Origin: an uncultured Prevotella sp.
GTDB taxonomy: Bacteria; Bacteroidota; Bacteroidia; Bacteroidales; Bacteroidaceae
Length of the DNA stretch: 64,000 nt
NCBI GenBank assembly: GCA_944319935.1
Contig: CALUFM010000005.1
Coordinates: forward strand, 1 to 64,000
Direction of reading: 5' to 3'
Part shown: positions 45,714 to 54,757 of the stretch, piece after piece
Position numbering within the stretch: position 1 is the first letter of the stretch
Layout: every line of letters begins with the position of its first letter
The notes under the pieces: model-generated
Databases searched by the model: none
What the model saw: only the letters and a program-made list of their open reading frames with translations
What the model was told of the DNA's origin: nothing
Program-made: the position numbers and the translations under genes

Positions 45714-48566
45714 TTGCAACTTATGAAAAAATTATTGTCTTTGCCTCCTAACCTTGTCGGATGCTTTCATGAAATAACCGGATACGGGCGTGACGAGTGG
45801 TTCTGCACGAGCGACCCGGCCGGCCACCGCATCGGTTCGGGCGGCGGGTCAACGTGGCTTTTGCAGTCATGTTATGAGGAACATGCCGCCGGACGCACTT
45901 TTGACGAGTGGCTTTCGGCGGACAAAAGGCTGCTTCTTCACGCCGGAGGGCAGAGCCGCCGCCTGCCGGCTTACGCCCCGTCAGGCAAAGTATTGACGCC
46001 AATCCCGGTGTTCCGATGGGCTCGCGGGCAGAAGCTCAGCCAAGACTTGCTGTCACTGCAAGTGCCTTTGTATGAACAGATAATGAGCCTTGCGCCCGAC
46101 AACATGCACACGATGATAGTCAGCGGTGATGTTTACATAAGGGCTACGCAGCCCTTGCAGCCGGTACCTGACGCCGATGTGGTGTGCTATGGGTTGTGGC
46201 TTGGCCCCGAGATAGCCAAAGACCACGGTGTGTTCGTGTCGAAAAGCGACACTCCTTCGACGCTTGAATGCATGATGCAGAAGCCGTCGGTGAAGACGCT
46301 CGGCGAACTCCTGAAAGATCATTTCTATCTTACGGACATAGGGGTGTGGCTCTTGAGCGACAAGGCCGTCAAGCTGTTGATGGCGCGCTCGATGCGTAAC
46401 GGACAGTTGATAAATTACGATTTGTACTCTGAATTTGGCTGCGCGTTGGGCACCGACCCGTCAATCAAGGACGAGGAGCTGAACAGTCTGCGTGTGGCTG
46501 TTCTCCCGTTGCCGGGCGGAGAGTTCTATCATTTCGGCACAAGCCATGAAATCGTGTCTTCCACCCTTGCCATACAAAACCTCGTGAACGACCAGCGTGA
46601 AATCATGCACCACTCGCTGAAGCCACATCCGGCCATGTTCGTGCAGAACGCAGTAACCCGGACGCCCATCACCGAGGCCAACCAGAACCTGTGGATTGAG
46701 AACAGTTGGGTGGGCAGTGACTGGACGTTGGCTCACGAAAACATAATAACAGGAGTGCCGGAAAACAGTTGGCGCGTGGAGCTTCGCCCCGGCCAGTGTG
46801 TTGACATTGTGCCGGTGGGCGACAAAGGCTATGCCGTGCGACCTTACGGATACGGCGACAAGTTCCGCGGAGCGTTGCAAGACGAGCGGACTGAGTTCAT
46901 AGGCCGCCCCTTCAAGGACTGGGCTGCGGAGCGCGGCATCAGCGTAGACGGCATAGAAGGTTCGGCCGACATGCAGACGGCGCGCGTGTTCCCGCTGTGT
47001 GAAGGCTCTTCTGACGACATGGGATTGGTGCTTCGCTGGATGCTCAACGAGCCTGGCCTTGATGCCGGAAGGCGTGTTTGGGAGCAGTCAGGGAAGCTGA
47101 GTGCCGACGACATATCAGCCCGCGCCAACCTCGTCAGGCTGACGGAGCAGCGGCGTATGTTGCGCGCCCGCAACTGGGAAGCACTCGCCCGCAACCACGA
47201 ACACAGCGTATTCTATCAAGTGGACTTGGACAACGCCGCGCGCGAATTTGCCGAGTTCAATATCCCCGAACCGTCGCCAATATCAGAAAACGCGCCCTTG
47301 CTGAAGCGCATAAGCGATTCGATGTTCCGTTCAGAGCTGTCACGTATCAGCGGAAAAGACTTCAGACAGGCTGAGGACAAGGCCTTCTCGCTGCTCCGTG
47401 ACGGGCTTACCGTGCAAGCCCTCGCCGAGAAACAGCGTCCGCGCATGTCCGTCTACGGCGACCAGATAGTGTGGGCGCGCAGCCCGGTGCGCATCGACAT
47501 AGCCGGCGGATGGACCGACACGCCGCCTTACTGCCTTATGGAGGGCGGCAGCGTGGTCAACCTCGCCATCGAGCTTAACGGCCAGCCGCCCTTGCAGACA
47601 TACGTGCGCCCGTGCCGTGAGCCGCACATCGTGCTGCGCAGCATCGACCTCGGAGCAGTTGAGGAAGTGCAGACTTACGAGCAACTGGCCGACATGCGCC
47701 ACGTGGGCAGCCCGTTCTCAATACCCAAGGCGGCGTTGGCTCTGGCCGGATTCCTGCCCGGTTACGGCGAGGAGACGTTCCCCACGCTCGAAAGCCAGCT
47801 CCGCGCGTTCGGCTGCGGCATAGAACTGACACTGCTGTCGGCCATCCCCGCAGGCAGTGGACTTGGCACGAGCAGCATGCTTGCGGCCACGGTTCTCGGC
47901 GCGCTTAACGACTTTTGCGGCCTGGCCTGGGACAAGAACGAAATCGGCCGGCGCACGCTTGTGCTTGAGCAACTGCTCACCACGGGCGGCGGATGGCAAG
48001 ACCAGTTCGGCGGAATACTGCAAGGCGTCAAGCTGCTTGAGACGCAGCGCGGCTTCGACCAGAACCCGTCAGTGCGCTGGTTGCCGTCAGACGTGTTCAC
48101 CCAGCCCGAATACAAGCCTTGCCACCTATTATATTATACAGGCATAACGCGCACGGCGAAGAACATCTTGGCCGAAATAGTGCGCCGCATGTTCCTGAAC
48201 CAGAGCGACGAACTGCGCCAGTTGCGCGAGATGAAGCGTCACGCCGTTGACATGTATGAAGCCTTGCAGCGCGTTGACTACGCCGCCGTAGGCCGCCTCG
48301 TGCGCAAGACGTGGGCGCAAAACCAGGCCATCGACAGCGGCACAAATCCCGAAGCCGTACTACGCATGACCGAACTTATCGACGACCTCGCCCTCGGCTA
48401 TAAGTTGGCCGGCGCGGGCGGAGGCGGCTATCTCTACATAATGGCCAAGGACCAGGACGCCGCCGCGCGCATAAAAAAGACGCTCAACGCCAACCGCCTG
48501 AACGCCAACGCCCGCTTTGTTGACATGACTCTCAGCACCGTAGGCCTACAGGTTAGCCGCAGTTGA
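45714..48566 (+). CDS. fkp: bifunctional L-fucokinase / L-fucose-1-phosphate guanylyltransferase
   Basis: Makes GDP-L-fucose from free fucose in the cytoplasm; Bacteroides uses it to decorate capsule and glycoproteins. The 950-residue protein has the guanylyltransferase half at about 1-430 (GSGGGSTWLLQ near 42, AGGQSRRLPAYAPSGK near 80-95). The GHMP kinase half covers about 585-950 (ARSPVRIDIAGGWTDTPP near 586-603, PAGSGLGTSSM near 712-722, KLAGAGGGGYLYIM near 901-914). The length equals known Fkp. No transporter or fucosyltransferase is adjacent. A starting point of ATG at 45714 or 45723 is possible. Confidence 0.96.
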   Translation: MQLMKKLLSLPPNLVGCFHEITGYGRDEWFCTSDPAGHRIGSGGGSTWLLQSCYEEHAAGRTFDEWLSADKRLLLHAGGQSRRLPAYAPSGKVLTPIPVFRWARGQKLSQDLLSLQVPLYEQIMSLAPDNMHTMIVSGDVYIRATQPLQPVPDADVVCYGLWLGPEIAKDHGVFVSKSDTPSTLECMMQKPSVKTLGELLKDHFYLTDIGVWLLSDKAVKLLMARSMRNGQLINYDLYSEFGCALGTDPSIKDEELNSLRVAVLPLPGGEFYHFGTSHEIVSSTLAIQNLVNDQREIMHHSLKPHPAMFVQNAVTRTPITEANQNLWIENSWVGSDWTLAHENIITGVPENSWRVELRPGQCVDIVPVGDKGYAVRPYGYGDKFRGALQDERTEFIGRPFKDWAAERGISVDGIEGSADMQTARVFPLCEGSSDDMGLVLRWMLNEPGLDAGRRVWEQSGKLSADDISARANLVRLTEQRRMLRARNWEALARNHEHSVFYQVDLDNAAREFAEFNIPEPSPISENAPLLKRISDSMFRSELSRISGKDFRQAEDKAFSLLRDGLTVQALAEKQRPRMSVYGDQIVWARSPVRIDIAGGWTDTPPYCLMEGGSVVNLAIELNGQPPLQTYVRPCREPHIVLRSIDLGAVEEVQTYEQLADMRHVGSPFSIPKAALALAGFLPGYGEETFPTLESQLRAFGCGIELTLLSAIPAGSGLGTSSMLAATVLGALNDFCGLAWDKNEIGRRTLVLEQLLTTGGGWQDQFGGILQGVKLLETQRGFDQNPSVRWLPSDVFTQPEYKPCHLLYYTGITRTAKNILAEIVRRMFLNQSDELRQLREMKRHAVDMYEALQRVDYAAVGRLVRKTWAQNQAIDSGTNPEAVLRMTELIDDLALGYKLAGAGGGGYLYIMAKDQDAAARIKKTLNANRLNANARFVDMTLSTVGLQVSRS

Positions 48567-48599
48567 CGCACCTCAATGACGCTTCTTTTTGCATCGGAT

Positions 48600-48707
48600 G
48601 TAACACATTGACATCCAACGCTTTACGAAAGACCGCCTTTTACATGCTAAAAAGCGGCCTTTTGCCGTTCAATAAGCCACCTTTCGCAAAGCGAAAGGTG
48701 GCTTATT
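48600..48707. repeat. 108-bp repeat, copy A
   Basis: Starts with a TAACACATTGACATCC head. Two hairpins follow: AAAGACCGCCTTTTA-type, then perfect 17-base arms AATAAGCCACCTTTCGC around AAA. It matches copy B at 54650-54757 at 99 of 108 positions in direct orientation. The pair brackets the five-gene operon. Confidence 0.85.
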
Positions 48708-48865
48708 TGTTTTTGTTTGTTGGTTATGCTGTCCTTGGTAGGTATACAATCCACTTACCAAATGGTGTGTGCAATGGCGGTACTTGCTGTTTGAAAGCAT
48801 TTGCATCGGTGTTATTTGAATATCATTTGAATAGAAACAAGTTGGTATTACGTTAATTTTAGTTA

Positions 48866-48904
48866 ATTGTTTTCGGGGGGGGGAGGTAAAAACAGTTATC
48901 TTTG
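48866..48904 (+). promoter_or_regulatory. promoter-like element with G9 tract in its spacer
   Basis: A TATCTTTG -7 box at 48897-48904 is preceded by a TTTTC at 48870-48874. Between them is an uninterrupted run of nine G (48875-48883). The spacer is 22-23 bases, two or three longer than the usual 19-21, so loss of G residues would restore optimal spacing. Confidence 0.55.
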
Positions 48905-49028
48905 TGTCAAAATATTGATAAACCTTAAATGTCGGTGTATTTGTATATTCCCTGTAACAGCTTTTTGCCATTTCTGCTTGGTAATATTTTTATCTCGTTG
49001 GATGTTAGGTAGGGAAATAATTTTGTAT

Positions 49029-49047
49029 TTGGACCAACTTGGACCAA
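49029..49047. promoter_or_regulatory. two tandem TTGGACCAA palindromes (operator candidate)
   Basis: TTGGACCAA occurs at 49029-49037 and 49039-49047, each a palindrome around A. Their centres are 10 bp apart, one helical turn, and they end eight bases before the -33 element of the proximal promoter. Confidence 0.55.
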
Positions 49048-49054
49048 AAATAAT

Positions 49055-49086
49055 TTTGAATGAATATGAATTAATTGATAATTTTG
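49055..49086 (+). promoter_or_regulatory. proximal promoter of the exported-protein operon
   Basis: TTTG at 49055-49058 and TAATTTTG at 49079-49086 are exactly 20 bases apart. The start codon at 49102 is 16 bases past the box, giving a leader of about 10 bases. Confidence 0.75.
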
Positions 49087-49101
49087 CAAAAAATAGTAAA
49101 G

Positions 49102-49608
49102 ATGAAACTGTTAAAGATTATCCTTTTATTCATGGCCTTGTGCCTTGTTGTGCCCGTTGGGGCGAAAAAGTATAAGTTTGACATCGATAGCCAGCGCAAC
49201 GTCGTTGTGAAGCGCAGCGGCAGTCCTGGGCAGAAGATTGTCGAGGTTGTGGCCATAGCCGGCTCGGTTGACAAGGCCATCAGCCAGGCTTTGGTTGACG
49301 CTGTGGCGGCGTTGACGTTCGAGGGGGCCTCGGGTAGTGGCGAGATGGGTGCCTGCCCGCCTGTTTTGGCAGAAGGCAAGTCTGCATACGAGGCGAACAA
49401 GGGCTTTTTTGATGATTTCTTCAAGCATGGCGGTTTCTTGCGTTTTGTGCGCCGTGTAAGCAATGCATATCCTACGGGAGAGGACAATGTGAAAGTGAAA
49501 GGTGACAACCAGATACGCATTACGCTGATAGTAGACTGGCAGGGGCTTGCCAGTTATTATAATTCAAACGGGTTGAAAACAAGTATAGGGAATTTACAAA
49601 ACTTCTGA
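49102..49608 (+). CDS. exported protein of unknown function, operon gene 1
   Basis: The start at 49102 gives 168 residues with a signal peptide (MKLLKIILLFMALCLVVPVGA). The mature part opens with KKYKFDIDSQRN. It then has an alanine-rich helix (SVDKAISQALVDAVAAL) that faintly recalls LPP20/FlgT-like accessory folds, and an FDDFFKHGGFLRFV segment. It ends in a beta-rich DNQIRITLIVDWQG. No family is recognised with confidence. It is the first of five co-oriented genes with very short gaps. The next gene starts two bases after its stop. Confidence 0.75.
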   Translation: MKLLKIILLFMALCLVVPVGAKKYKFDIDSQRNVVVKRSGSPGQKIVEVVAIAGSVDKAISQALVDAVAALTFEGASGSGEMGACPPVLAEGKSAYEANKGFFDDFFKHGGFLRFVRRVSNAYPTGEDNVKVKGDNQIRITLIVDWQGLASYYNSNGLKTSIGNLQNF

Positions 49609-49610
49609 AG

Positions 49611-50579
49611 ATGAAAAGGATATTACTTTTTTTATTGACATTGGCATGTGTGTTTGTCGCCAATGCGCAAAATGACGGGTTGAAAATGCAGAAGCCCAAG
49701 GTGATGGTTGTGCCTGAAGAGGCGTATTGCATCAATTCGGGCTATTCAAAGACTGCCGCTGATGGCACAACGATAGCCGACTATCGCCGCGCCATGTTGG
49801 ATGAAAATGTACTTGACGTAATCAACTCGTTTGAGAATATCATGGCCGGTTACGGCTTCGAATTGACAAATCTCCAGCAGACGCTTGACGAACTGAAGGA
49901 GGACGAGGCGTTGAGCAACGTGCTGACGGCGAAGGACGATGGCATGGTGCAGGAGGATGACTTGGACCGCCTCTCGCGCGTGGCTGGAGCCGACATAATG
50001 GTGAAAGTGTCGCCGAAGGTGTCAAATTACGGCCCCGAACGCATGCTCGAGTTGCGCGTTTCGTCGATTGACTGCGCTTCAAAGAAGGCATTGTTGGCTT
50101 TCGGGCCTGTGGCTAAAACGTCGGCTGGGTCGGTAAGCATGTTGTTGCGTGCTGCCGTCAGTGATAACATTGAAACTTTCGCGATGGGGCTTAACAAATA
50201 TTTCGAGGGGCTTAAGACCAAAGGACGCGAGGGTACTATATATATAAAGGTGGCCGACACGTGCCCGCTCAACTTAGAGTCAACCGTGAAGTACAAGGGT
50301 GAGGAGGGTGAACTGGCCGACCTTATACAACTTTGGGTCAGTGAGAATGCCGTTGGCGGTGCGTTCACTGGTGGCAAGAGTTCGCGTTACAGCATGAAAC
50401 TTGACCAGGTGCGCATACCCCTTGTAGGTAAAGCTGCTTTCGGACGGACAAAAGCTTTAAGCATGGAAGACTTTGTTAAGACAGGCCTTACGGCTCTGCT
50501 TGGCCGCTATGACATATCTGTCTCCACGCATGCTGTTGGCATAGGTAAGGTTTACATGACGTTGGGTGGAGAACAATAG
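49611..50579 (+). CDS. DUF6175-like exported protein, operon gene 2
   Basis: The 322-residue product has a signal peptide (MKRILLFLLTLACVFVANA). KVMVVPEEAYCI follows, then a region ENIMAGYGFELTNLQQTLDE and RVAGADIMVKVSPKVS. This resembles the nucleotide-free CsgG/TolB-N-like folds that pair with outer-membrane assembly; I recall this group as DUF6175. The C-terminal half ends MTLGGEQ. It overlaps the following gene frame region but the next good start is 14 bases later. No catalytic motif is visible. Role unknown, probably periplasmic. Confidence 0.72.
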   Translation: MKRILLFLLTLACVFVANAQNDGLKMQKPKVMVVPEEAYCINSGYSKTAADGTTIADYRRAMLDENVLDVINSFENIMAGYGFELTNLQQTLDELKEDEALSNVLTAKDDGMVQEDDLDRLSRVAGADIMVKVSPKVSNYGPERMLELRVSSIDCASKKALLAFGPVAKTSAGSVSMLLRAAVSDNIETFAMGLNKYFEGLKTKGREGTIYIKVADTCPLNLESTVKYKGEEGELADLIQLWVSENAVGGAFTGGKSSRYSMKLDQVRIPLVGKAAFGRTKALSMEDFVKTGLTALLGRYDISVSTHAVGIGKVYMTLGGEQ

Positions 50580-50592
50580 TAAGGAGGAACGT

Positions 50593-51534
50593 ATGAGAAG
50601 GTTTTTTGTTTTAATATTGTTCACCGCCGCAACGTTTGTCTGCGGCGCGCAAAACGCCGAGTTCGGACGGCTTACCATCACGCCGTACATAGCTCCTGAG
50701 AGTGGCTTTGACGCTTCGGCCTCGCGCCTGTTGCAGGAAAAGCTGGCTTACGCCGTGTCGTTGGCCAACGCCTCCGGCGGCTTTGACAAGCGGTTTGTCA
50801 TCACGCCGAAGGTTGACATCTTGCAGTCAACTACCACTGCCACAATCCCCCAGAAAGTGTCATTGAGGGCGCAGTTCACGTTCTATGTGGGTGACGGAGT
50901 TGACGGGACGCTATTTTCTTCATGTCAGAAAGAAGTGACTGGGATAGGCGACACGGAGAAGCAAGCCGTGCTTTCGGCCATCCGTAAGATTAACGCCAAG
51001 GACAAAGAATTGCAGGAAACGATAACCGAAGGGCGCGAACGGATTGAGGAATATTATAAAAAGATGGCTCCGAAAATATTCGCCGAGGCGCGTTCCCTTA
51101 TTTCTTCATATAAGTATGAGGAAGCAATCGCCGCCCTTGCAGTCATTCCCCGTTCGTGCGGCGACTATGAAAAGGCGCAAGAAATGATGGCCGAGTGTGT
51201 GTCGGCGAGCGTTGAAAACGCCAACAACGAGCTGCTTGTTAAAGCCCGCTCGGCGTGGAGCGCAAGCCCTGACGAGGCCGGAGCATCCGAGGCGGCTGCT
51301 TACTTGGCCGACATAACCAATCCTTCGGCGAAGGTTACGGCGGCCGTCAATAAGCTGACAGCCGAGATGGAGGCCCGCATTTCAGACATGGCGAAGCGGC
51401 GGCTTGCCGTGAAAAAGCAGCGTATAATAAGCGCGGAGAATGTAAGGAAAGAAGAAATCAGGGCCACGGAGCGGGTGGTAGGACGCATAATCGACGCCTA
51501 TACGCCTGTGTACAGGGTGGCAAGATGGTTTTAG
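50593..51534 (+). CDS. exported protein of unknown function, operon gene 3
   Basis: The start at 50593 is preceded by a rare strong Shine-Dalgarno-like AAGGAGG seven bases upstream, which decides it over an in-frame ATG 27 bases earlier. The 313-residue product has a signal peptide (MRRFFVLILFTAATFVCGA). It continues with a beta-rich first half (GRLTITPYIAPESGF) and a long helical second half from about 140, including a TPR-like helix pair (SSYKYEEAIAALAVI). The C-terminus is basic. It may interact with peptidoglycan or the barrel encoded next, but that is only context. Confidence 0.72.
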   Translation: MRRFFVLILFTAATFVCGAQNAEFGRLTITPYIAPESGFDASASRLLQEKLAYAVSLANASGGFDKRFVITPKVDILQSTTTATIPQKVSLRAQFTFYVGDGVDGTLFSSCQKEVTGIGDTEKQAVLSAIRKINAKDKELQETITEGRERIEEYYKKMAPKIFAEARSLISSYKYEEAIAALAVIPRSCGDYEKAQEMMAECVSASVENANNELLVKARSAWSASPDEAGASEAAAYLADITNPSAKVTAAVNKLTAEMEARISDMAKRRLAVKKQRIISAENVRKEEIRATERVVGRIIDAYTPVYRVARWF

Positions 51535-51572: not shown

Positions 51573-53051
51573 ATGCGAATAAAACATTTTTTACTGTCGT
51601 TCCTTCTGCTTTTCGCCGTGGAAGCTTCAGCCCAAAGGTTGTCGTTCGATTCCAAATACATCAAGGTGGGCGTCATCGACAACGGTGTTTACGACATGAC
51701 GGTATTCCAAGCAGACCCGAACATACGTTATCTCGGCAGCGTGAACGCCCCGTTTAAAGAGAATATTGACGGCAGCAGGGCCTCGATGGAGGCTGCGGCA
51801 CGCACGCTCACCGAGGCCGGAGCCGGCAAGCAGACGTTGGACTTGCTGCTGCAGCGCGACGCCGAGGGGCTGCATTTCGACCGGCTTTACGCCGAAGCCT
51901 TGACAAACACCACCATTGAGGAGGTCAACGAGGCAAAACTCGATGTCAGCGCGGAGACCAAGGACGTGCTGAAAAAGGAGATTTCGCGCCAGCTCTTGAA
52001 GAACAATTTCATCGTGTTGTTCTCGTACAAGGAGAAAAGCGACGGCAAGAAGAAGTATTATTGGAATGTTTTTAAAGTAGAGATAGACGACAAAATCATA
52101 GAGCAAGCCTTCCTTACGTGGAACGACATGGAGCGTTACGACCAGATAATAGTGCCCGTAAAGTATGTGGCCCGGGGCAAGGTGGACGACAACCTGGCGT
52201 TGGAAATATCAAAGAAAGTGCCCGAGTTCGCCGTGCGCGGCCCTGTGTACAGCCGCCATCCGTTCTTCGCGAGGGTGGGGGCGGGGCAAGGTGTCAAGTC
52301 GGGCGACCTGCTTTACATCTACCGTTCATATCTTGACGACGACAACACGATGTATTCAAGGAAGGTCTGCACCGTGCGCGCCACCGACGTTTACGCCGAC
52401 AGTACCCGCCTTTACACGATAAGCGGCAAGTTCGCGTCACGCAAGCGCGGCGACATAGCCGTGTACAAAGGAGCGCATCGCTGGTCGCTTGCCGTGATGG
52501 GGCAGGCCAGTTTCGGCGATGACCCGCGCTACGGGGCACGCATGTTGTGGGAATACAGGGCCGGGCGGTTCTCGAAGAACGGTTTTACGAGCTACGTCCT
52601 CGTAGGGTTTGATTTCAACACGTTCAAGAAAGACCCAGAAGGCGTGTGGTGGGACACCAACGGCAACCCCAAGCAACCCATGCTCATGGGCGGAGCTTTC
52701 AACCTTGGCTACGGCTTGGGCTTCAACTTCCTCGGGCGGTTGGAACTGATGCCGTACTTTCTTGTGGGGCTTCAGTACGCCACGTTGACAAACCTGGACT
52801 TGCTGTATTACGACAAGGAGCAGGGCGGATGGACAACGCTTAACGACAACGGCGAGGCATATAACGGAACTCTTTTCGCCTCGGGGCACGCCGGGCTGAG
52901 GCTGAATGTCAACCTGTGGTATCCAGTTCAGCTTACCGTAGGCGCGGACTACAACTACAACCTGCCGTTGGACAAGAAGTTTGAGGCGGCTTACGATAAC
53001 CATGAACTCAACCGCGTGAACTTCTACGCTGGTCTTCGTTTCAACTTATAA
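51573..53051 (+). CDS. predicted outer-membrane beta-barrel protein, operon gene 4
   Basis: The 492-residue product has a signal peptide (MRIKHFLLSFLLLFAVEASA) and a periplasmic-type domain at about 20-300. That domain contains a VGAGQGVKSGDLLYIYR segment like small beta domains of CsgG-type or adhesin-associated proteins. The last 190 residues alternate polar and aromatic residues in strands (YVLVGFDFNTF, GLGFNFLGRLELMPYF, VGADYNYNLPL) and end GLRFNL, as expected for an outer-membrane barrel. The sequence contains one DST tripeptide, a possible Bacteroidales O-glycosylation site. Function unknown. Confidence 0.72.
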   Translation: MRIKHFLLSFLLLFAVEASAQRLSFDSKYIKVGVIDNGVYDMTVFQADPNIRYLGSVNAPFKENIDGSRASMEAAARTLTEAGAGKQTLDLLLQRDAEGLHFDRLYAEALTNTTIEEVNEAKLDVSAETKDVLKKEISRQLLKNNFIVLFSYKEKSDGKKKYYWNVFKVEIDDKIIEQAFLTWNDMERYDQIIVPVKYVARGKVDDNLALEISKKVPEFAVRGPVYSRHPFFARVGAGQGVKSGDLLYIYRSYLDDDNTMYSRKVCTVRATDVYADSTRLYTISGKFASRKRGDIAVYKGAHRWSLAVMGQASFGDDPRYGARMLWEYRAGRFSKNGFTSYVLVGFDFNTFKKDPEGVWWDTNGNPKQPMLMGGAFNLGYGLGFNFLGRLELMPYFLVGLQYATLTNLDLLYYDKEQGGWTTLNDNGEAYNGTLFASGHAGLRLNVNLWYPVQLTVGADYNYNLPLDKKFEAAYDNHELNRVNFYAGLRFNL

Positions 53052-53064
53052 AAGGCATACTACA

Positions 53065-54597
53065 ATGAGAAAGACATTCTTTATAAATACGATAGTTATC
53101 GCCTTGTTGGCGGTTTTCACGTCCTGCGAGTATGAATACGACATGCCAGACATGTCAGACGTGGAGTTTGAGTACAGGGTTGACGAACTGCCCGCTGGCC
53201 TGAAGGCCGAGCTTGTAAGCAAGATTGAGGCCACAGGCCGCCCGATGGAAGCTTTGACGGCAAAGTTCACGCCTGTGATAACCGAGAAAGACGCGGCCGG
53301 GAACATCGTGTACCAAGGCGAAGCGCGCAACGTGGTAAACAAGAACGCCAAGACAATCGAGCTGGCTTACCGCTGTGAGGCGCGGCTGCCGTCAAGCATC
53401 GACATGGCCTTTTCTTCCGGGTATTACAACATGGGGTACTTCAAGTTCAGCAAATCCTTCCCCGTGGAGCTGTCGCCCAGGGGCATGAACATAGGCGTGC
53501 AGAGGGGCGACGAGTACACAGCCGACTTGGAAACGGGCTGCTCTGTTTATTCCGTGAAGAACAGTTTTTATGACGTTATAGACAAAGATTTCGATGCGAT
53601 AGGGTATGACTGGACTGACATTTCGTACACGATAGAGGAACGCGACGCCGACGGAAAGGTGATAAACACGCTGTCGCCGAGCAGCTTGAGCTATTGCTTC
53701 GCAAGCGCGGACAGCGCGAAGAGCGTCACCATATCTATGACGGTGGAAGGCCGTCCGGCTTCAAGCTATACGCAAGCAATTTCTGTGTACACATACACTT
53801 TCACGAAAAAGTTCGCCTTGGACGTGTTCAGCATCACGGAAATAGAGCTTACGCCCGACTTGGAATATACCCGCAAAGACCCCGACACGTCGTCGATGAG
53901 TTCGATATATACGGTTGAGAGCGACATGGGCGCACAAATTACAACCGACATCGAGGGCACGGGATACGAGATGTATGGCGTTGAATATGAAATTGTTGAG
54001 AAGGACAAGGACGGCAACGTGTTGCGGACGCGCAGCGACATCAGCACCCCTTACGGGTCGGTTGTCAGCGAAGCCGGGGCCGCGAGCGTGGAGATTACCA
54101 TAAAGGCGTATGGCTCAGCACCCGGGAAATACAGCAAGACGCTGATTTACGAGTATAAGTTCACGCCCGTGAAGCTCGACCCGCTGAAGCCTGCCGGCAT
54201 AGTGTTGTCGGAGGTGTTGGGCTACAACCGCGTGACGGCCGACCTTTCACAAATAAGCCGAGTGTACTCGGTGACTAACAAATTCACCACCGTAATATCC
54301 GACGTCGAGGCCGCCGGGTACGAATATTACGGCGTTGAATACACGTTCACGGAGAAAGACGAGCGTGGCAATGTGCTGAAGTCGTACACTGACATCAGCA
54401 CTCCGTATGGCCAGGTGGCAAGCGAACCGGGGGCGGCAAGCGTGGAAATAACGGTCAAGGCGTACGGACTGCCTGAAGGAAGTTATAGCCGCGTGCTTGT
54501 CTACACTTACAAGTTCGCCCCGTTCAGGCTGACCCCGTTGCAGCCTACGCCAATCGTTCTGAGTGAAAATGTTGGTTACACACGTGAAAATGGATGA
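53065..54597 (+). CDS. repeat-containing lipoprotein, operon gene 5
   Basis: The 510-residue product has a lipoprotein signal (MRKTFFINTIVIALLAVFTSC, cysteine at 21) and acidic residues after the lipobox (EYEYDMPD), a pattern fitting surface export. A unique part covers about 30-148. Three tandem modules of about 118 residues start near 149, 267 and 385. Modules 2 and 3 share GYEMYGVEY-like, DISTPYG and GAASVEIT blocks; module 1 is more diverged. The protein stops eight residues into what looks like a fourth module (VGYTRENG). It may be a surface-exposed adhesin-like protein; no known family is claimed. Confidence 0.75.
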   Translation: MRKTFFINTIVIALLAVFTSCEYEYDMPDMSDVEFEYRVDELPAGLKAELVSKIEATGRPMEALTAKFTPVITEKDAAGNIVYQGEARNVVNKNAKTIELAYRCEARLPSSIDMAFSSGYYNMGYFKFSKSFPVELSPRGMNIGVQRGDEYTADLETGCSVYSVKNSFYDVIDKDFDAIGYDWTDISYTIEERDADGKVINTLSPSSLSYCFASADSAKSVTISMTVEGRPASSYTQAISVYTYTFTKKFALDVFSITEIELTPDLEYTRKDPDTSSMSSIYTVESDMGAQITTDIEGTGYEMYGVEYEIVEKDKDGNVLRTRSDISTPYGSVVSEAGAASVEITIKAYGSAPGKYSKTLIYEYKFTPVKLDPLKPAGIVLSEVLGYNRVTADLSQISRVYSVTNKFTTVISDVEAAGYEYYGVEYTFTEKDERGNVLKSYTDISTPYGQVASEPGAASVEITVKAYGLPEGSYSRVLVYTYKFAPFRLTPLQPTPIVLSENVGYTRENG

Positions 54598-54649
54598 TGC
54601 TTTTCTGTCCGTTATTGTCCGTATTGATAGCATGATGGAATTTGTCTGT

Positions 54650-54757
54650 GTAACACATTGACATCCAATACTTTACAAAAGGCTGCCTTTTACTCGCTAA
54701 AAGGCGGCCTTTTGTCGTTCAATAAGCCACCTTTCGCAAAGCGAAAGGTGGCTTATT
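54650..54757. repeat. 108-bp repeat, copy B
   Basis: Direct-orientation partner of copy A with nine differences in 108 bases. The final hairpin (54719-54757) is identical in both copies; changes are concentrated in the first hairpin. Confidence 0.85.

Follow-up and report, generated by a model that had tools for sequence, protein, structure and literature searches.

A candidate slippage-prone promoter spacer upstream of an exported-protein operon in Prevotella, and the class of poly-G promoters to which it belongs

The locus

The DNA discussed here is a stretch of 64,000 nt (the window) from an uncultured Prevotella sp., in which an operon of five genes, ending at 54597 and containing DUF6175 as its sole Pfam family, is preceded by two predicted promoters, a distal one (P1), built around a run of nine G, and a proximal one (P2). 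P1 stands between a terminator hairpin and the operon, and the list of open reading frames holds no gene between P1 and the operon, only overlapping frames. The features are as follows.

48671-48707, plus strand: terminator-like intrinsic hairpin, 17-bp stem and T tail, 3′ of a fucokinase/pyrophosphorylase gene
48853-48856, plus strand: TTAA, first copy, start of the 10-bp-spaced upstream element
48863-48866, plus strand: TTAA, second copy, beginning 34 nt 5′ of the -7 box TATCTTTG
48870-48874: TTTTC, directly 5′ of G9
48875-48883, plus strand: G9 tract, followed by AGGTAAAA
48884-48896: AGGTAAAAACAGT, the 13 nt between the end of G9 and the -7 box
48897-48904, plus strand: TATCTTTG, -7 box of predicted distal promoter P1, a perfect TAnnTTTG (consensus from the available part of PMC7366714)
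49029-49047, plus strand: tandem TTGGACCAA (49029-49037 and 49039-49047), 10-bp period
49055-49058, plus strand: TTTG, -33-like, 20 nt 5′ of the proximal -7 box
49079-49086, plus strand: TAATTTTG, -7 box of predicted proximal promoter P2, inside the conserved YAAYTTTGCAAAAAA
49102-49608, plus strand: gene 1, 168 aa, signal-peptide-like start, no match in Pfam or NCBIfam
49611-50579, plus strand: DUF6175 protein (PF19672), exported-looking
50593-51534, plus strand: exported-looking protein without family
51573-53051, plus strand: exported-looking protein without family
53065-54597, plus strand: lipoprotein-like protein, no family above cut-off

The terminator hairpin is included in a stretch of 109 nt (48599-48707) that recurs, with 92% identity, at 54649-54757, 3′ of the last gene of the operon, and four or more genomes of the genus contain pieces related to this repeat. 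P1 is also surrounded by a perfect 10-nt inverted repeat (48611-48620 and 48996-49005), which is short and has its arms 375 nt apart. Rfam gave no match across 48400-49250, which leaves that region without a known RNA, and sigma-70 hexamers were looked for and none was found.

At P1 the order is TTAA pair, G9 and -7 box, all of them exact matches, with the two TTAA copies exactly 10 bp apart, and transcription would be expected to start near 48911. The promoter lies 197 nt 5′ of the ATG of the first gene, with P2 in between. An earlier note on this DNA had placed the G9 between TTTTC and TATCTTTG, 22 nt apart, and the sequence confirms this. The promoter of sigma-ABfr, according to the available part of PMC7366714, carries TTTG at -33 and TAnnTTTG at -7, while in Flavobacterium johnsoniae the -33 element could not be identified. 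P1 shares with it the perfect -7 box (48897-48904), and differs from it in having no TTTG some 19-21 nt upstream of that box, where the G tract occupies the bases, and in having TTAA-N6-TTAA farther upstream.

The tract is the longest run of G or C in the window, a single run of 9, with none of 7 or 8. A plus-strand run of at least nine G nevertheless appeared in 40 of 300 shuffles of the whole window, against none of 300 for the composite of G8+ and -7 box; when the 535-nt intergenic region alone was shuffled with dinucleotides preserved, G9 appeared in 8 of 5000 trials and a G8+ run 11-25 nt 5′ of a -7 box in 1 of 5000. Because of these frequencies, local and window-wide, G9 is remarkable by its location rather than by its existence: anywhere in 64 kb it is unremarkable, whereas in an AT-rich gap 5′ of a perfect -7 box it is remarkable. 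Matches with G7 in the window were not above shuffles (3, against a mean of 5.25).

Poly-G promoters in the genus

In a search of 269 genomes of the genus, the pattern TTAA-N6-TTAA-N0-9-G6-N10-26-TAnnTTTG occurred at 74 places, spread over 49 of the genomes, and its reversed form did not occur at all. The shorter pattern of G8, 11-25 nt and TAnnTTTG gave 119 matches (overlapping ones counted) in 54 of 249 genus genomes against 12 for the reversed pattern, and the same pattern with C8 gave 39 matches in 21 genomes against 16 reversed, figures to be read with the caution that the reversed control does not preserve the frequency of the -7 box, that the C8 pattern is also above its own control, that 12 of the 39 come from the repeats of one genome, and that related promoters are not independent in the class and spacing counts. 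Ten places in one genome (G136; 12 overlapping matches) carry a C8 / G6-8 hairpin repeat directly 5′ of TACTTTTG or TACCTTTG. Of 247 genomes taken from across the order, 39 have the G8/-7 pattern; most of the matches lie in two genomes that belong to one other family, with 11 and 10, and a third genome has 4.

The source genome has 15 tracts of G8+, and in six of them TAnnTTTG follows on the G strand at no more than 100 nt, against 0, 0 and 1 boxes at three control positions; a set of 155 tracts from many genomes, partly selected for TAAAA, gave 28 boxes, and its control positions gave 10, 10 and 12. A second member of the class in the source genome (L019) has G9, with a spacing of 37 between TTAA pair and -7 box, 5′ of a DUF3575 gene. 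TAA directly follows the tract in 47 of the 74 composites, where P1 has AGG. The longer TAAAA was considered as a definition of the class, and its enrichment is real (21 against 1 reversed, in 60 genomes); it was dropped because it also occurs at tracts within genes and in just 11 of 113 in a set that had not been selected for it. As in simple-repeat phase variation, the tract lies between elements that we predict, from their sequence, to be those of a promoter, and the existence in Bacteroidales of poly-G promoter switches, as a class, is well supported.

The TTAA pair and a rule of spacing

We collected 91 unique promoters, selected by G8+, a gap of 11-25 nt and a perfect -7 box. Of the distances between two TTAA within the 35 nt 5′ of the tract, exactly 10 bp stands out with 42 instances, no other distance occurring more than three times. 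This 10-bp pair is present in 41 of the 91. Among AT-rich -7 boxes that lack a G run it is present in 7 of 147 (p = 6e-14 for the difference), and in 12 of 313 control boxes when the AT filter is lifted; the exact pair is missing from the other 50 poly-G promoters. The pair is by no means restricted to G tracts. Placed 28-36 nt (from the end of the pair) 5′ of TAnnTTTGC, it has 459 occurrences, distributed over 95 of the 100 genomes searched, against 15 for the reversed pattern, and, as far as sequence can tell, it belongs to promoters of the genus in general. Among the first 80 of these matches listed, the distance from the second TTAA to the -7 box is 37-38 in 47, 33-36 in 12, 39-40 in 7 and 32 in 14, the pattern admitting 32-40 only, so that the last 14 sit on its lower edge. 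A run of at least four G is present in only one of these 80, and G-tract promoters are thus a small part of the TTAA-pair promoters.

A similar spacing is seen in the poly-G promoters that carry the pair, 28 of the 41 falling at 36-38, whereas permuting offset, tract and gap among promoters (20000 trials) put a mean of 12.1 and a maximum of 24 there; offset and gap are correlated at -0.62. Among the 74 composites the spacing is 36-38 in 43, 35 in 10 and 34 in 3, P1 being one of these three. A tight mutual fit of the G count to the other distances was also considered, and proved weak: when G counts alone are permuted, 25.5 of 41 stay in range against the 28 observed (a fraction of 0.08 of permutations reaching 28), so that the G count appears loosely fitted to the other distances, as would a drifting tract.

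Variation of tract length

Tract length varies among close relatives, at the level of the class. The same promoter has G7 in one genome and G6 in another (G188 and G201) with 47 of 47 flanking bases equal, and within G201 two promoter copies that differ at 1 of 47 flanking bases have G6 and G7. More widely, a set of promoters from six genomes (G017, G030, G188, G201, G221 and G280), connected through pairs that differ at 10 or fewer of the 47 flanking bases and in length only within the tract, runs through G6, G7, G8 and G9, with spacings of 35, 36, 37 and 38. Orthologous genes of two species have G8 and G9 at equal gap in two cases (L249/L303, 88% protein identity; L082/L289, 72%), G8 in both in a third pair (L235/L308, 96%), and in a fourth (L294/L295, 91%) G9 and G8 with a compensating gap, which keeps the spacing at 37 in both. 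Since these lengths were read from assemblies, some of the differences could be errors.

Genes behind the promoters, and tracts within genes

A script chose the longest ATG frame within 600 nt for the downstream gene, and 15 of the 91 promoters had none of at least 100 aa. A signal-peptide-like start is present in 56 of the 76 downstream proteins, against 15 of 82 other frames of at least 200 aa at the same loci (p = 2e-12) and 12 of 33 frames of at least 250 aa in the window, with signal peptides called by a crude rule and non-gene frames included in both controls. Among 25 of the 63 Pfam families, those listed, are DUF3575 (8), carboxypeptidase-regulatory domains (8), TonB plug (6), BspA-type leucine-rich repeats (6) and NusG (2). 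The two NusG-family proteins we take to be UpxY-like.

DUF3575 was also tried as a general target, and rejected, a G6+ run being present upstream in just 4 of 15 placed loci (30 fetched). The placed loci of KTNALYW type have such a run in three of three, two of them known beforehand from the pattern search, and other types in 1 of 12; the DUF3575 loci found by pattern (L230, L260, L261, L294 and L295) are not of KTNALYW type.

Tracts also occur within genes. A polysaccharide cluster on another contig of the source genome (C4; L003, L006, L011 and L013, within L129) has G8-G12 tracts that lie inside genes for acyltransferases and hexapeptide transferases or at their start, the open frame being broken at the tract in one acyltransferase and two hexapeptide transferases, and another acyltransferase being in frame. 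In genome G005 (L072/L173), G9 lies in the apparent signal-peptide part, as judged by eye, of an exported-protein gene whose frame is broken at the tract.

The predicted proximal promoter and the orthologous operons

A search of genome contigs with the DUF6175 protein led to three loci, two of which include the upstream region and could be aligned: L076, from an uncultured Alloprevotella, and L077, from an uncultured Bacteroidales, with protein identities of 84 and 81%. TGRACCAA repeats and YAAYTTTGCAAAAAA are preserved in both, directly 5′ of the first gene, YAAYTTTGCAAAAAA having C instead of T as its first base; the second repeat begins 38-39 nt 5′ of the -7-like box at all three loci, that of the window included. 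The box itself reads CAATTTTG and CAACTTTG in the orthologues, imperfect against the consensus. The tandem TGRACCAA (49029-49086 in the window; from 5410 in L076 and L077) has a geometry like that of the TTAA pair, with another half-site. An extra TAATTTTG at 49051, with TTTG 19 nt 5′ of it, is not preserved as such in either orthologue.

G9, the TTAA pair and TATCTTTG are absent from both aligned orthologous operons, and when the DNA of the locus was compared with 398 genomes of the genus (E ≤ 0.001) no match covered the elements of P1, while three weak matches overlap part of P2. Of the two predicted promoters, the P2 region (49029-49086) is the conserved one, and P1 is lineage-specific.

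A distal, probably variable promoter and its alternatives

We favour a reading in which the G9 promoter serves the operon as a second, distal promoter that is probably variable. In this reading, to which we give a probability of roughly 0.58, G9 would be the slippage-prone spacer of P1, and the number of G would set the strength of the promoter. The TTAA pair would be bound either by an activator or by the alpha subunit of RNA polymerase; the bound protein would contact the polymerase at the core, and each G gained or lost would shift and rotate the TTAA site relative to that core, thereby changing transcription. P1 is predicted to be weak as assembled because its spacing of 34 is below the peak of 36-38; a longer tract, not a shorter one, would approach the peak. 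Its output would be added to that of the conserved P2, the likely source of the base expression of the operon. The activity of P1 and P2, and switching at P1, are what we infer from this arrangement.

The opposite proposal, made in the earlier note, took TTTTC as the -33 box, with a spacer of 22 nt that the loss of one to three G would bring into the 19-21 range. Its spacing is correct, but we hold the proposal to be quite improbable: TTTTC differs from the TTTG of the consensus given in the part of PMC7366714 at hand, gap and tract together measure at least 22 nt in all 41 TTAA-pair members of the class (P1 being the shortest), and the gap alone measures at least 19 nt in 31 of them, so that the bases 5′ of the tract are not where a -33 box would be. 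Moreover, among the TTAA-pair promoters listed, only 10 of the 50 at spacing 36-38 have TTTG at the -33 place. The upstream element that is constrained by spacing in the class is the TTAA pair, and measured from it G9 is too short, not too long. Two further readings are less credible still. The inverted repeat around P1 might suggest an invertible promoter of the usual Bacteroidales kind, but the pair is short and one of its arms lies upstream of the terminator, and we can scarcely entertain it. A short reading frame (48867-49175) has the tract at its start, and that the tract acts on translation there is equally hard to believe: the frame stays open over the tract, extending 8 nt to its 5′ side and 289 nt to its 3′ side, and the source genome has tracts within genes elsewhere, yet the frame as listed starts with TTG and overlaps, in another frame, the start of the first operon gene.

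The alternative that matters most, although we think it unlikely, is that the tract is an inert relict, P2 alone driving the operon and P1 being a copy of the class that has decayed or was never active. This would fit the conservation of the P2 region, not of P1, in both orthologues, the 10-bp period of the P2 repeats and their near-equal distance (38-39 nt) to the -7-like box, as well as the off-peak spacing of P1 and the AGG after its tract. Against it stand the TTAA pair, G9 and -7 box of P1, all exact when the G8+/-7 part alone is so rare in local shuffles, the other locus of the class at spacing 37 in the same genome, and the imperfect form of the P2 box in the orthologues. What the earlier note had proposed is supported in part. 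A phase-variable promoter switch is upheld as a class, by the 74 places against none reversed and by G6 and G7 between equal flanks, and loses strength at P1, with its spacing of 34, its absence from the orthologues and a nearer P2; the idea that P1 is the main promoter of the operon gives way to the conserved P2 region. The comparison with related genomes which that note had called for is similarly divided, there being no tract in the two aligned orthologous operons and differing lengths in near-identical promoters of the class. Its choice of exported and surface proteins as targets holds at class level, the pattern being strand-oriented (119 against 12) and the downstream proteins largely exported-looking.

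Known systems and significance

Promoters with simple repeats are familiar from porA and opc of Neisseria. The likeness is that a repeat in the promoter region sets, by its length, the distances between elements or regulators, and that surface proteins are controlled; the difference lies in another phylum and sigma factor, and in a tract placed here between the TTAA pair and a TAnnTTTG core, with a peak at 36-38 nt and a genus-wide set. Response regulators of the OmpR/PhoB family bind direct repeats whose half-sites are short, lie upstream of the core and follow each other at one helical turn; the TTAA pair resembles these sites and nothing further is claimed. Neisseria nadA, according to the available part of PMC2791445, acts through a repressor whose operators flank the tract.

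In Bacteroidales, reviews present phase variation as DNA inversion (accessible parts of PMC11868660 and PMC12632263). The invertible promoters (PMC12632263, same part) belong to the same order and have similar targets, namely SusC-type proteins, capsule loci headed by UpxY and surface proteins, whereas the poly-G class would use single-base changes of a G tract, with no inversion. The words slipped and homopolymer are absent from the accessible part of PMC12632263; in PMC2831843, which deals with homopolymeric tracts, the terms Bacteroid, Prevotella and Porphyromonas do not appear; PMC11388281 has slipped-strand in its reference list only; and among the open-licence papers that our search listed there is no description of slippage or poly-G promoter switches in Bacteroidales.

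We can understand these promoters, with somewhat better than even chances, as a second genome-wide system of phase variation in Bacteroidales beside DNA inversion, in which poly-G spacers would set the distance and helical phase between TTAA-N6-TTAA and TAnnTTTG, and single-G slippage would tune a phasome of SusC/TonB receptors, BspA-like and DUF3575 surface proteins, lipoproteins and capsule operons headed by UpxY, P1 being one such switch, assembled in a low state. If this is true, the class would escape the software that finds inversions. The spacing of 36-38 is a quantitative rule, which would predict the state of each switch from its sequence, and the work exposes in the genus a promoter type, with its TTAA pair, that is common and mostly without the published -33 box.
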